This document shows, piece by piece, positions 4,315 to 28,266 of a stretch of DNA of 64,000 nt. The DNA is from Fimbriiglobus ruber. Its GTDB lineage: Bacteria; Planctomycetota; Planctomycetia; Gemmatales; Gemmataceae. The DNA lies in contig NZ_NIDE01000017.1 in assembly GCF_002197845.1 (NCBI RefSeq), positions 1,534,712-1,598,711 of the forward strand. Reading direction: 5' to 3'. A program made the position numbers and the translations under genes. Below the pieces are notes generated by a model. The model did not search any database. It saw only the letters and a program-made list of their open reading frames with translations, and was not told where the DNA came from. Position 1 is the first letter of the stretch. Every line of letters starts with the position of its first letter.

Positions 4315-5515
4315 CTAACCCAAATCGAACTGAACACATTTTCCACCAACTTTAGAGCGGCTTACCCCTGCCTGCCGCTGGAGCGTCCGGATCTGGTTGT
4401 TGACACCCTCCAGCGGACCGGTCGAGATCGGGCAGCGGTGGTAATTGAGCACCCCCGGTCGGTGCATCCGGACGGTTCCCGCCATCTTCTCCAGCACCGA
4501 CCGCTTCGACGCCTCGGTCGGCTCGACGGCACCAGTCGTCCAGGAATCGGGTGGCGGCCGCCACGCTCGGTTGGTCCCAGAAGTGCCGGAACGCCCCCTT
4601 CATGTCGTAAGCCGTGGCCAGCGGTTGGTTGCTCCGCAAGGCCTCTTCCCACCGCGTCCGTTCGCCTTTCGTCTCGTCCAGGTTCTCGGGGTTCTTCAGA
4701 ATCAGCCAGCGGGTTCCCTTGAGGAGCTTCTGGCCGAGCGGCCCTTCGGCCGCGCGTGGCCACGCGCGGCCGAACGTGGCGAGGCGGTCGTGGAACAATT
4801 TGACGACGCGGAAGTGGTCGAACACGTGGATCGCCCGCGGTAGGTGTTCGCGGATGGCGAGGGTGTACGCGGGCGACATGTCGGTGGCGACCGCCTCGAT
4901 CTTCGCGTGCCAGGCGGTCCGGCGTTTCCGGAAGGGAGTTAACGCGTCGGCGCCTTTGCCCTGGCCGACGAACACCACCGCCCCGCTGACCAGATCGAGG
5001 ACAATGGTGAGGTCCCGGTGGCCGTGGCCGATGGCGATCTCGTCGATGGCGAGGCGCTTGCGCTTGCGCTTCTTGAGCTTGGGCTGGGCGACGTGGGTGT
5101 GCAGGTGCCGCTGGAATAGGGCTTTGATGCTGTCCCAACCGACCTGGAGGTGGTCGGCGACGGCTGGGATGGTCATGTGCGACCGCAGGCTCCGGGCGGA
5201 TCGCCCGAAGGCGTGGGTGACGCGGCGGAAGGGGCGGGCGAAGCGGATCGCGGCCGGGCGGATGCGGCCGCAGTTGCGGCACCCGAGCCGGGGTACGGGT
5301 AGCCGCAGGTCGACGGGCTTGCCCCCGATCGGGACGGTCCGAACGGTGCGTTCCTCGGCCCCGTGGCGGATGACATCGGGGGATTGGCAGTACGAGCAGC
5401 GATCGTGCGTGGGGTCTTGCCGGAGGTGGAGGGTGAGGACGCCGTCGGCGGTGGTCGTCCGGACGCCGTCGTACTGGCGGAACCCGAATGCGCGATAGAG
5501 TACTGTCGAGGACAT
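4315..5515 (-). pseudogene. ISL3-family transposase, frameshifted and truncated at C-terminus
   Basis: Transposase of the ISL3 family. The N-terminal zinc finger is CSYCQSPDVIRHG plus CRNCGRIRP, followed by a helix-turn-helix and the DDE domain with LAIDEIAIGHGHRD and AVATDMSPAYTLAI. The frame is lost at 4514-4521, where a 4-base unit (tcgg on the plus strand) is present twice. Removing one copy joins the frame to SVLEKMAGTVRMHRPGVL and TGPLEGVNNQIRTLQRQA, the usual end of the family. The last residues after RQA do not match the family, so the 3' end also looks cut where the ISKra4-type element begins. Probably inactive. Confidence 0.8.
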
Positions 5516-5600
5516 GCCGTTCTCCGGAAGAAGGTGTGGTTACCCTTCTAGAAACGGCATGCTCCTCATGCTGACCAACTTCCAGGTACGCTCACCCCGG

Positions 5601-6101
5601 ATGAACCAGAAAAGCGATCCCGACTGGTGGCATCACCTGGACACCTACCGGATCGTCCTTGGGGCGGCTTGGGGCAACGACGGAGTGGTTTCCCCGGACG
5701 AAGCCCGCTTGCTGGCCGTACTGAGAAACCACCTCGGGATTACGTCGGAAGACCACTGGCTGATCAGCGCCGTTCTCAAACGATTTCCGAAAGAGAAATG
5801 CGTTCTCCACACGCCGGATGAAATTAACGACGCCCGCAAGGAACTTCAGCGCCAGGGTCTTGTCTGGAACTACAAGGACGAGAACGATCAGAACATTGAC
5901 GTGATACCGGCCGAGATTGCGAGCGTGATCCGTCAGGAATACGTTGGCCTGGAACTCCAAACGGCAAACTATCGCCGGTTACTGTCATACGACGCGATTC
6001 TTGGTGGTGTCGCCCGATCATTGAACGGCGCAGCAGGCTTGCGTACAATTGGTTATGACAACTACCATCACCACCCGGCCCGCAGACCCCGTGGCGGATG
6101 A
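5601..6101 (+). pseudogene. TerB-like hypothetical protein split by IS1-like insertion
   Basis: From the start at 5601 the protein reads WWHHLDTYRIVLGAAWGNDG and continues with an acidic helical region resembling TerB-like tellurite-resistance/SAP-type domains (DEARLLAVLRNHLGI, HTPDEINDARKELQRQGLV). The host part ends at codon 6000-6002, where the IS1-like element begins; beyond that the frame reads into the element. Joining 6002 to 7198 across one copy of the 8-bp duplication keeps the frame open for 19 more codons, to a TGA at 7255-7257. The domain assignment is tentative. The insertion itself is clear from the duplicated target. Confidence 0.6.
5995..6002. repeat. 8-bp target-site duplication (left), IS1-like copy 1
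   Basis: The sequence cgattctt sits immediately outside the left inverted repeat and recurs exactly at 7190-7197 outside the right inverted repeat. Duplications of 8-9 bp are usual for the IS1 family. Confidence 0.85.
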
Positions 6102-7189
6102 CCTCTCCCGGTTCTGCTGTCTCAACCCCGACTGCCCCAAGTACGGCCAGCGTGACGCCGGCAACTTGACCGTCTGCGCCCGCTACGGGACGCACCACCG
6201 GCGGCTCCTGTACTGCCGTGCGTGCAAGGACCGCTTCTCCGAACGCAAAGGCACTCCCCTCTTCGACTCCCGGCTGGCCGACGATGTCGCCCTCAACGTC
6301 CTCGCCCACTTGGCCGACGGGTGCGGGGTCCGCCAGACCGGCCGGCTGGTGGGGGTCACCAAGGACACGGCCGCCCGGTACGCGGCCCGCGCTGGCGGAC
6401 ATGCTCGCCAACTCCATGACGAGTTGGTCGGGCTTTCCCCCCCTCACGACCACCGTCCAGGTCGACGAGAAGTGGTCGTACGTCGGCAAGAAGGAAAAGA
6501 ACTGTGATCCCGACCGGCCGGCCGACCGGCTCAAGGGTGACTGCTGGGACCACGTCGCCCTCGACGCCGACAGCCGGTTGGTCGTGGAGGTGGTCGTCGG
6601 CCCGCGGACGGCGGACCTGGCCCACCAACTCCTGGACGGGGTGAAGGGGCGGTTGGGCGGCCGGGTCCCGGCGTTGCTCACGAGCGACGAGTACGCGGCG
6701 TATGCGGATGTCATCGTGTCGGTGTTCGGGCAGGACGTGACGCCCTCGCGGACGGGCAAACCCGGGCGGCCGGCGGGTCCGCGGAAGGTACCGCCGGCCG
6801 GGATGTGTTACGCGACGGTTCACAAGACGCGGGTGAAGAATCGGGTGGTGTCGGTCGACGAGCGGGTGATCTTCGGGGCTCTGCCCGCGGGTTCGCGGGC
6901 GAATACGTCGTACCTGGAACGGCCGAACGGGACGGACCGACATCGGAACGCCCGGAAGGGCCGGAAGACGTATCGGTTCTCGAAGGCGTGGGCGGCGCAC
7001 GCGTCGATGACCCACTTCACATTGCGGAGTGACAACTTCTGCTGGGCGGTGCGGACGCTGGCGACGAAGGACGCATCGGGCCGGAAGCACCCGCGGACGC
7101 CGGCGATGGCCGCGGGCCTGGCCGACCACGTCTGGAGTTTGAAGGAGTGGGTTACCCGACCCGGCGTTCAACGGTGAGGGGACATCACC
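6003..7189 (+). mobile_element. IS1-like insertion sequence, copy 1
   Basis: A complete 1187-bp element. Its ends are 24-bp imperfect inverted repeats at 6003-6026 and 7166-7189, matching at 18 of 24 positions. The outer ends begin ggtg.tgtc and the inner ends finish ttgaac. Both ends are flanked by the direct repeat cgattctt. It carries one transposase gene in two overlapping frames, and the transposase stop lies inside the right inverted repeat. It interrupts a TerB-like gene. The presence of both repeats and an exact target duplication suggests a fairly recent insertion. Confidence 0.85.
6055..7177 (+). CDS. IS1-like transposase with +1 frameshift in a C-run
   Basis: Cuts and joins DNA for the surrounding element. 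The N-terminal part (6055 to about 6442) has a zinc-ribbon and helix-turn-helix region with CCLNPDCPKYGQRDAGNLTV, CRACKDRFSERKGTPLFDSR and a TGRLVGVTKDTAARY helix. The catalytic part runs on in the +1 frame to 7177: VQVDEKWSYVGKKEKN (first Asp), LTSDEYAAY, and YLERPNGTDRHRNARKGRKT (final Glu), typical of IS1 InsB. The change of frame falls in tttccccccct at 6435-6445. The second element in this window shifts in the same direction at the same protein position, so this is probably programmed. Frame-corrected length is about 373 residues. Confidence 0.8.
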
Positions 7190-7197
7190 CGATTCTT
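7190..7197. repeat. 8-bp target-site duplication (right), IS1-like copy 1
   Basis: Exact copy of cgattctt found at 5995-6002, directly outside the right inverted repeat. Downstream is the rest of the interrupted frame and a tctgcgccctctcgtgcc stretch of the sort common between planctomycete genes. Confidence 0.85.
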
Positions 7198-25949: not shown

Positions 25950-26064
25950 TCATTCAGGGGCAATTCGCACGAATACGGCGGCCGACCAGCCACGGTCGAG
26001 AGAACGTCGCCGGCCGGTATGAGACGTGATCTTGTTTCTAGACATCATGCCATGCAGGTTACAC

Positions 26065-27057
26065 ATGTACAGAATAACCGGCGCGTTCTTGGCGTGTCTC
26101 GGTGTCGCAGGCGTTCTGTCCTGGGTGGCCGGAAATGCGCCGGCCCAGGCGGACAAGCCGCCTCCCGCGGCCGACGCCGCAGCGAAAGAAAAGGTCGCCA
26201 AGGTAACTGTCGATTCGGTGACCAAGGAATGGACCGCCCGCCAGGAAAAAGTCAAAACCGCGGTGTTCGAGTGCAAGATTGAACGGACATGGCACAAAGG
26301 TTCATTCGACGCCGAACCTTTGCCGTACTGGAAGAAAGATCAACACACCCCTCCCGAAGATCTGAAAAGGACGGGGATCAGCCGGGTCGTTTTCGGCGGC
26401 CAAAAATTTCGCTTTGACGATCACATTCCCCGGTGGGATCCCGGAACGGTTGGAACTTACGACAGCAAGCACGTCGATACGTATGACGGGCAACTGGCCA
26501 AGATGCTTTCCGATCCGACGAATTCGCGGCAAAAGTATCCCACCGGTCGTGTCGAAAAGTCTGAGGCATCGTTCGCCGCAAAATTCATCGGCCTTGAGCC
26601 GTACTTCCTCAGTTTTCGCGGCGACCACCCTCAACACTCTCACCGATTAAACTTGTACAAGCCGACCGGCCGCTCGTCCGTGATAGCGGGCAGGACGTGT
26701 GCAGAATTGTCAAGGGAGGTCCCGGCTAATCAGAATCAATACCTGTTATACGTCGATGTCGACAGATTCGTCGTCGTAAAGAAGGTGACCTTGAACAAGC
26801 GACACACCGAGCCGACGTGGCAGATCGACATCTCCTATTCGCCCGACGCGGTCATTGGTTGGGTACCGCAGACGTGGGAATACCGCATCAGAACTGGCCT
26901 CGAAAACAAAGTGAGCGAATCCGGGCGGACGCTGGTCACCAAGTATCAAATCAATCCGGACGTTCCCAAAGAAGAGTTCGATATCGCCTTTCCCCCGGGA
27001 ACGTATGTCGTCGACAAATCGTCGGATAAAGCAGTCGAATACGTTATTCGGTGGTGA
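26065..27057 (+). CDS. Secreted hypothetical protein, C-terminus altered by IS insertion
   Basis: 330-residue protein with a signal peptide (ITGAFLACLGVAGVLSWVAG, cleaved near APAQA). The body begins VDSVTKEWTARQEKVKTAVF and reads as beta-rich, with VDRFVVVKKVTLNKRH and a final FPPGTYVVDKSSDK. This is reminiscent of LolA/outer-membrane lipoprotein-sorting folds, as seen in many planctomycete secreted proteins. The last two residues and stop (RW, TGA) lie inside the IS1-like element that starts at 27050, so the true C-terminus is lost. It follows the sigma gene and may be its target or partner. Start chosen from the signal peptide and an aggt element. Confidence 0.65.
   Translation: MYRITGAFLACLGVAGVLSWVAGNAPAQADKPPPAADAAAKEKVAKVTVDSVTKEWTARQEKVKTAVFECKIERTWHKGSFDAEPLPYWKKDQHTPPEDLKRTGISRVVFGGQKFRFDDHIPRWDPGTVGTYDSKHVDTYDGQLAKMLSDPTNSRQKYPTGRVEKSEASFAAKFIGLEPYFLSFRGDHPQHSHRLNLYKPTGRSSVIAGRTCAELSREVPANQNQYLLYVDVDRFVVVKKVTLNKRHTEPTWQIDISYSPDAVIGWVPQTWEYRIRTGLENKVSESGRTLVTKYQINPDVPKEEFDIAFPPGTYVVDKSSDKAVEYVIRW
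27042..27049. repeat. 8-bp target-site duplication (left), IS1-like copy 2
   Basis: The sequence cgttattc lies directly outside the left inverted repeat and recurs exactly at 28259-28266. Confidence 0.85.
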
Positions 27058-28258
27058 CCTACTTCCGTTGCACAGCCGGGTAGGTCATCCATTCGCTCAC
27101 CGACCACACATGATCGGTGAGCCCCGCCGCCATCGCTGGGGTCCGCTTCTGCCATCGTCCGTCCGCATCGCGGACCCGGAGGGTGCGGACCGGCCAGCAG
27201 AAGTTGTAACTGTAATGGCTGAGCATCGTGGCCGCCCGGTGCGTCTCCCAGTCCTTCGAGAACGCATACGTCTTTCGCACCTTCCGACTACACCGATTCC
27301 GGTCCGTCCCGTTGTGCCGCTCGACGAAGCAGGTGTTGACCACCCGGCTGACGGTCGAGACCGCTAACGCCAGAGCGACGGCCAACATCGTCCCGAACAC
27401 CACCCGGGTGTCGACCTGGACCACCCGCCCGTTCTCCCGGACCTTGTGAACGGTCGCGTACGTGACCTCTGGCGGTAACACCGTCCGCGGTCCCGGTGGG
27501 CGACCCGGGCGACCCGTCGGGGGCGGCGTCACGGTCGTCCCGTACGCGGCCCGGATGGCCTCCGGGTACGCCGGGAGTTCGTCCGATGTGATCAACCGCA
27601 GGACCCGCCCGCCGGTCCGCTGGTGGAAGTCCCGGACGACCGCCGACACGCTCTCGGACGTCCGCTTGCCGACCACCAGGCTCACGATCAAGCGGGTCTC
27701 GGGGTCAATGGCCGTGTGGTCCCAGCAGTCCCCCGGCGGACCTCGTCGGGGGCACAATTCTTCTCCTTGCGGTCGACGAACGACCACTTCTCATCGAACT
27801 GGACTTCGGTCGTCCGAGGGGGAAAAAGCCACGAGTTCATCGTGGAGTTGTTCGGCATGGTGACCGGCCCGGCGGATGTACCGGGTGACCGTATCGGGGT
27901 GGACACCGGTCAATCGAGCGGTCTTCCGCGTGCCGATGCCCTCGGCCACATGAGCGAGGACCGACAGGGCTTTGTCGGCCGGCAACCGGGTATCGAACAG
28001 GGGCGTCCCTTTCCGCTCCGAGAACCGCGTCCGGCAGGTCGAACACCGGAGCAGGCGGGTCTGGTTCGGCCCGTACCGCATGGGCACGGTCAGATTCCCG
28101 TGGCCCCGCTTCCCGTGATCCCGGCACGTCTCGTTGAGGCAGCAGAACCGACTCAGGTCATCCATGACCCACCCACCCAGGACGGCGAATATCCGGACAT
28201 CGGACGTAACTATTTACACCACCTCAGGCTCCGAGTGCAATACTGAACGGACACCACC
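27050..28258 (-). mobile_element. IS1-like insertion sequence, copy 2
   Basis: A 1209-bp element of the same type as the one at 6003-7189 but clearly diverged. The 24-bp inverted repeats (27050-27073 and 28235-28258) share the outer ggtggtg.cc and inner ttgcac, 15 of 24 positions. Flanking cgttattc duplications confirm the borders. The transposase reads leftwards. It has cut the end of the secreted-protein gene, supplying a new stop codon. The coexistence of two such copies suggests that the family has been active in this genome. Confidence 0.85.
27059..28165 (-). pseudogene. IS1-like transposase, copy 2, with conserved +1 shift and an extra break
   Basis: Homologue of the transposase at 6055-7177. 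Frame 1 gives LSRFCCLNETCRDHGKRGHG and CSTCRTRFSERKGTPLFDTR. At gctttttccccct (about 27817-27829) reading must move +1 to continue as VQFDEKWSFVDRKEKNCAPD. The same shift is needed at the same point in copy 1. A second break follows in the C-run 27730-27734; one added base restores GDCWDHTAIDPETRLIVSLV and the rest, including FVERHNGTDRNRCSRKVRKT. The first shift looks functional; the second is either decay or a run-length error. Confidence 0.75.
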
Positions 28259-28266
28259 CGTTATTC
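28259..28266. repeat. 8-bp target-site duplication (right), IS1-like copy 2
   Basis: Exact copy of cgttattc from 27042-27049, directly outside the right inverted repeat. Confidence 0.85.

Follow-up and report, generated by a model that had tools for sequence, protein, structure and literature searches.

The window analysed here, a 64,000-nucleotide stretch of a Fimbriiglobus ruber contig, contains two IS1-type insertion sequences in which the transposase is divided between two reading frames at a run of T and C. The question raised by this locus is whether the two elements are simply broken, or whether the change of frame is a programmed step in making the enzyme and, if so, whether it takes place during translation or during transcription.

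Two divided transposases in the window

Copy 1 lies on the plus strand and has the following features:

6003 to 7189, plus strand: copy 1, IS1-type insertion sequence, 1187 bp, ends GGTGGTGTC.../...GGACATCACC
5995 to 6002, unstranded: target duplication CGATTCTT, 8 bp, left of copy 1
7190 to 7197, unstranded: target duplication CGATTCTT, 8 bp, right of copy 1
6055 to 6507, plus strand: ORF1, zinc-ribbon-like CC..C..C and helix-turn-helix (HTH), 0 frame, possible ATG start
6403 to 6433, plus strand: predicted RNA hairpin adjoining the tract, -18.9 kcal/mol, z -4.36
6434 to 6443, plus strand: candidate slip tract TTTCCCCCCC, T3C7
6444 to 7177, plus strand: ORF2, DDE catalytic part, +1 frame

The open frames of copy 1 extend over 6025-6507 (ORF1) and 6170-7177 (ORF2), with ORF2 offset by +1. 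ORF1 stops 25 codons past the residues HDELV, and its HTH match is weak, HTH_29 being below cut-off; ORF2 matches the Pfam domain DDE_Tnp_IS1, as does ORF2 of L004, a sister copy of copy 2. The stem of the predicted hairpin ends right at the tract and was equalled by 1 of 200 shuffles. Within the catalytic part of ORF2, 10 residues are missing and ERPNG stands in place of the ERHNG of a relative, and this suggests that it encodes an inactive product. L002/L009 is a degenerate near-relative of copy 1, L002 forming a second, degenerate copy that is 97% identical over about the same stretch. We also note that the element lies within an open reading frame of roughly 200 codons (5499-6101), which continues into it; this may be a gene interrupted by copy 1.

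Copy 2 lies on the minus strand:

27050 to 28258, minus strand: copy 2, IS1-type insertion sequence, 1209 bp, ends GGTGGTGTCC.../...GGTCACCACC
28259 to 28266, unstranded: target duplication, 8 bp (GAATAACG on the minus strand), 5' side of copy 2
27042 to 27049, unstranded: target duplication, 8 bp (GAATAACG on the minus strand), 3' side of copy 2
27791 to 28165, minus strand: ORF1, zinc-ribbon-like and HTH, 0 frame, ATG start
27829 to 27845, minus strand: predicted RNA hairpin CCACGA-UGAAC-UCGUGG, one base before the tract, z -2.09 for the 41-nt stretch
27818 to 27827, minus strand: candidate slip tract TTTTTCCCCC, T5C5
27059 to 27817, minus strand: ORF2, DDE catalytic part, beginning in the +1 frame and broken at the G run 27730-27734

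Here ORF1 is open over 27791-28213 and ORF2, again offset by +1, over 27688-27909 and then 27059-27790; the second frame break arises at a run of five G (27730-27734) where the sister copies L003-L005 have six. The hairpin was equalled by 7 of 200 shuffles. Five copies of the copy 2 type were found in the same genome, 99.6-100% alike over about 1.21 kb, and all five have their own 8-bp duplication, a T5C5 tract and the +1 offset between ORF1 and ORF2. The ORF1 of L004 matches HTH_23, and in L005 the ORF1 match begins only at residue 21. L006, a more distant copy in this genome (80% in DNA), has a T4C5 tract and encodes the protein in a single frame of 383 residues. L007 and L008 (window 27050-28258) are identical and share the lesion that breaks ORF2, but have different target duplications, and so a broken copy of this type has apparently been mobilised in trans, the sister copies presumably supplying the transposase. 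Next to the L007 copy (contig C14, same genome), self-matches in L007:1-692 reveal direct repeats that recur about every 74 bases. In the window, an open frame (26023-27057) has copy 2 at its 3' end and takes its final bases and stop from the element.

Both window copies have GGTGGTG-type ends and 8-bp duplications, that is, terminal repeats and a short duplication of the IS1 type. PF03400 was matched above cut-off by P0001, ORF2 of L004 and the fused L006, and just below cut-off by ORF2 of L016 (23.6 versus 24.1 bits). NF033558 spans both parts of L006 with an E value of 9.3e-18, at 64.9 of 100 bits; this is below the curated cut-off, and L006 is therefore a divergent IS1 member at most. Judged by these matches, the elements are divergent relatives of IS1. 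A search of solved structures gave nothing useful (best E 0.24).

The initial annotation had described both copies as changing frame in one and the same direction, at matching places in clearly diverged proteins. Our analysis bears this out: ORF2 is in the +1 frame of ORF1 at T3C7 as at T5C5, the shift lies just past HDELV and ahead of the DEKWS segment in both copies, and the ORF2 products of copy 1 and L004 are 56% identical. Both tracts exist as described, at coordinates about one base away from those first given (the true positions are 6434-6443 and 27827-27818). The second frame break of copy 2, and the 10-residue loss and ERPNG of copy 1, had been overlooked. Given these other lesions, the two window copies are both unlikely to be autonomous and are probably inactive by themselves.

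As letters alone the tracts are unremarkable: TTTYYCCCCC is expected 1.0 times per 64 kb, and at least two occurrences were found in 27 of 100 shuffles. Two tracts in 64 kb are thus compatible with chance, and we therefore relied on homologues instead. What goes beyond chance is the position of both tracts at the same junction and their conservation in homologues.

The junction among homologues

Homologues were sampled from a collection of named species (37 loci), from the host's own family, class and phylum, from another Planctomycetes family, and from relatives of the Methanospirillum, Magnetococcales and Kiritimatiellia hosts. The 221 loci listed are a sample; 85 of them have no ORF1/ORF2 junction and 43 are duplicates, leaving 93 unique junctions. 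For counting, T3C5 was the minimum accepted as a tract, so that the phase of the tract and any excess beyond T3C5 lie outside the definition.

A T(3-5)C(5-7) tract is present in 50 of the 93 junctions, and in these ORF2 is in the +1 frame in 45, in the same frame as ORF1 in five, and in the other direction in none. This agrees with the original proposal that a programmed +1 shift, or else slippage of the transcript, takes place at a run of pyrimidines. The check suggested at the time, a search of homologues for a conserved slippery site, gave the same answer from the other side: among 47 unique +1 junctions, 45 bear the tract and two (L115 and L123) do not. The remaining junctions without a tract comprise 36 in one frame and five with a +2 offset (L071, L129, L138, L155 and L176); the latter five, like L115 and L123, are distant or partial matches. 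Hosts of the 45 split junctions are found in Planctomycetota, Kiritimatiellota, Magnetococcales, Desulfosporosinus and the archaeal Methanospirillum. The one-frame junctions with a tract are L002, L006, L030, L042 and L179, of which L002 and L179 are otherwise broken.

A tree was calculated from 47 of the 72 unique junctions then in the set, 25 having been dropped because their open pieces were too short. The tract-bearing rows form one group of 33 (support 100/99), with 30 split and three single-frame members, and all 14 rows without a tract lie outside it. Single-frame homologues lacking the run had been named as evidence that would count against the proposal; the 36 junctions of this kind do exist, but those in the tree lie outside the clade. 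Closer one-frame junctions without a tract (L044, L143, L145, L153 and L190) have early breaks in ORF2 and are either absent from the tree or were found after it; the offset of L044 is +1 with one query set and 0 with another. The three single-frame rows that bear a tract (L006, L030 and L042) are separate, scattered tips inside the clade, and could be natural constitutive transposases that have escaped from frame control. L042 runs off its contig.

The split form also multiplies. In one genome (G026), 22 full-length matches were listed and 20 of these fetched; all 20 have the junction of the split copy L053, in three variants of 15, three and two copies, and 16 of the 20 are flanked by exact 8-bp duplications. 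It follows that reading in a single frame is not needed for mobility. Decay was considered as an explanation for the clade, and is ruled out by the target duplications together with the identical split copies.

Tract, predicted hairpin and the probable route to a fused transposase

The boundary between T and C has the same codon phase in all 45 split junctions, and this constant phase together with the tract means that the 0-frame codons are NTT-TCC-CCC. The first codon is TTT in 35 junctions, CTT in seven, GTT in two and ATT in one. Elsewhere in these elements TTT makes up 24% of Phe codons, TCC 18% of Ser and CCC 32% of Pro, related rows being counted as separate in this and in the length statistics. 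The tract forms are T5C5 (24), T3C7 (7), T4C6 (6), T4C5 (3), T3C5 (2), and one each of T4C7, T3C6 and T5C6. The total length is 10 in 37 of the 45 (T5C5, T4C6 and T3C7) and shorter in the T4C5, T3C5 and T3C6 tracts. T and C lengths are correlated at -0.75 (44 junctions), and a total of 10 occurs in 36 of these 44; 20,000 permutations of the C lengths give 19.7 such totals on average and at most 31. On the tree, the three to four informative independent pairs show the trade-off as expected and none is contrary (median p 0.125); the trend is thus clear, with small independent support. At the wobble position that lies five bases ahead of the boundary, T is present in 25 of 29 junctions having C5 and in 2 of 16 having C6 or more (Fisher 1.7e-6, related rows counted as separate), while T-ending codons make up 14% of Ala, Gly, Pro and Ser codons elsewhere. 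If one site serves all junctions, the switch must fall between -9 and +5 bases of the T/C boundary, as delimited by L057 on one side and by L018 and L029 on the other; in these last two a 0-frame stop codon (TAA and TGA, respectively) comes right after CCC.

The RNA just upstream of the tract tends, by prediction, to fold. Over 48 tract-bearing junctions the upstream hairpin has a mean of -9.2, versus -7.0 for synonymous shuffles (Wilcoxon 2.6e-5); taken singly, 13 of the 48 beat their shuffles at p<0.1. A profile over 61 offsets, made with the 37 split junctions left after thinning for relatedness, has its strongest mean at the tract, narrowly (-7.75 versus -7.65 at -84). The hairpin at the tract is a separate peak, surrounded by bases that fold weakly, and ranks in the best five offsets for 11 of the 37 junctions singly. 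The two arms also co-vary: in 28 GC-rich junctions, kept after thinning and a GC filter, native arms are 1.8 kcal/mol better than swapped arms, the largest difference among 25 positions, the other 24 ranging from -1.24 to +0.72. Some hairpins are weak (L024, -1.2; L048, -2.2; L023, -3.4 kcal/mol), and L024 and L048 have none by a stricter measure; in the archaeal members the hairpin is weak or absent.

The comparison of homologues, as a result drawn from sequence, thus establishes a conserved +1 junction with its tract, a mostly constant tract length, a predicted adjacent hairpin in many of the members and the spread of split copies. The +1 switch itself is almost certainly programmed, and the explanations that do away with a switch fare poorly. 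Both window copies carry other lesions and long runs are prone to error, and this would fit degenerate pseudogenes or homopolymer sequencing errors; yet 45 different junctions, spread over many genomes and several phyla, share the tract, its phase and its direction, and one genome has 20 identical junctions, 16 of them in copies with target duplications. We regard this reading as refuted for the clade as a whole and barely credible overall, even though the two window copies are likely to be inactive. Nor do ORF1 and ORF2 look like two separate proteins, the second made by an internal start or by coupled re-initiation. An ATG in the ORF2 frame does lie within -60 to +40 of the boundary in 23 of 45 junctions, but 12 of the 45 have no ATG, GTG or TTG in that frame (some of these are broken copies), and in L057 no more than 9 bases of open ORF2 frame precede the boundary. 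The fusion is also encoded by single-frame relatives, both within the clade and beyond it, and the tract would be left unexplained. The start-codon scan of the 45 junctions led us to reject an independent start of ORF2, and the two-protein arrangement is very improbable.

The harder choice is between ribosome and RNA polymerase. Programmed +1 ribosomal frameshifting at TTT-T or CCC-C within the tract is compatible with 43 of the 45 tracts, which contain TTT-T (T4 or more) or CCC-C (C6 or more). A stop after the shift codon favours the +1 shift in prfB, and the stops right after CCC in L018 and L029 might therefore speak for ribosomal shifting. The prfB gene also has a Shine-Dalgarno-like (SD-like) stimulator just upstream of its shift codon; SD-like motifs (AGGAG, GGAG, AGGA, GAGG or AAGG) were found within 18 bases upstream of the tract in 0 of 45 junctions, so a stimulator of the prfB type is absent. 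Ribosomal shifting also has no universal re-pairing site to work with, T5C5 being without CCC-C and T3C7 without TTT-T, and it leaves unexplained the trade-off of T and C to a total of 10, the wobble T found mainly at C5, and the abutting 5' hairpin, which would presumably fall inside the ribosome. Furthermore, the part consulted of a 2016 review states that no IS elements using +1 ribosomal frameshifting had been identified (PMC5009743). We therefore consider this explanation unlikely, though worth keeping in mind, and the broader proposition that an entire IS1-related clade, bacterial and archaeal, relies on true +1 ribosomal shifting at a T/C tract of sliding position a shade less likely still; given the statement in that review, it would if true be the first IS group of its kind.

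Slippage of the transcript is favoured over ribosomal shifting because the tract mostly totals 10, a predicted hairpin often lies directly 5' of it, SD-like motifs are missing and T5C5 has a precedent. Our preferred reading, to which we give a probability of roughly 0.7 on the present sequence analysis, is that the transposase of this IS1-related clade is made by programmed transcriptional realignment. The T(3-5)C(5-7) tract would fill the RNA:DNA hybrid of RNA polymerase, which is 9-10 bp long according to the part of the review consulted (PMC5009743), while the RNA just behind it would form a hairpin within the exit channel. The hybrid would slip forward in a minority of passages, giving a transcript one base short (a C, by precedent). 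We infer the slip itself, its place at the RNA level, its frequency and the base lost from this arrangement. The loss of one base would put the DDE domain of ORF2 in frame with the zinc/HTH domain of ORF1, and ordinary translation of the slipped transcript would then yield the fused transposase, that is, a little of the full enzyme. Unslipped transcripts would give the short ORF1 product. In IS1 the corresponding short product, InsA, is a regulator, and free ORF1 might have a similar role here.

Comparison with known systems

The elements resemble IS1 (InsA/InsAB') in their two-part transposase, with a zinc ribbon and HTH followed by a DDE part, in their short target duplications, in ends similar to the GGTGxTG type of IS1, and in their similarity to PF03400 and NF033558. 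They differ in the shift: IS1 uses a -1 shift at an A run, whereas here the change is +1 at a T/C tract, and -1 occurs in none of the 50 tract-bearing junctions. Three Methanospirillum loci (L023, L024 and L048) have both the tract and the +1 offset, and L024 is placed in the clade. They may for this reason belong to the ISMhu11 subgroup of the IS1 family; the literature search found no paper on ISMhu11. A DDE_Tnp_IS1 cluster of 230 genes is listed with -1 shifts in the part consulted of PMC3711429.

The closest parallel is an IS630 element of Roseiflexus studied by Penno et al. (2015), as described in the part consulted of the 2016 review (PMC5009743). There, slippage at T5C5 is undetectable when the tract is without its context; with the 5'-adjacent inverted repeat, transcripts lacking one C are formed, in that direction only, and ordinary translation of the slipped transcript gives the transposase. 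The likeness extends to the T5C5 tract, the +1 outcome and the transposase product, and in part to the inverted repeat directly 5' of the tract: tests over the whole set support such a hairpin here, the offset profile narrowly, and it is weak or absent in some members. In our set this type of tract stands at the frame switch in 24 of 45 junctions, and a total of 10 in 37 of 45. The Roseiflexus element, as described there, belongs to another IS family and has a GCGGGC/GCCCGC stem with a 4-base loop, while the stems here are variable and in part weaker, the tract also takes the forms T4C6 and T3C7 and is clade-wide, and slippage is predicted. In IS1447, of the IS3 family, slippage at an A run (nine, seven being sufficient) beside a predicted stem-loop gives the transposase, according to the part consulted of PMC6211511. 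That run slips both ways, as described there, whereas the T/C tract here is associated with +1 only wherever the frames differ.

Among the literature matches listed, PMC5009743 and PMC6211511 are the two that mention T5C5 slippage, in each case in IS630 as far as the parts consulted go, and T/C slippage in the IS1 family appears in none of the titles and abstract openings; an earlier description is possible. On that literature the kind of slippage site is already known, from IS630, and its occurrence in an IS1-related clade would be new. The same matches, in the parts consulted, hold one experimental example of hairpin-assisted slippage at a T/C tract, and the 45 natural junctions, with several tract forms that add up to the same length and with hairpins that vary, offer a natural series for the study of slippage by RNA polymerase. 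Gene callers may be reporting such transposases as broken when they are intact. The comparison suggests that relatives of IS1 and of IS630 have reached the same regulatory device separately.
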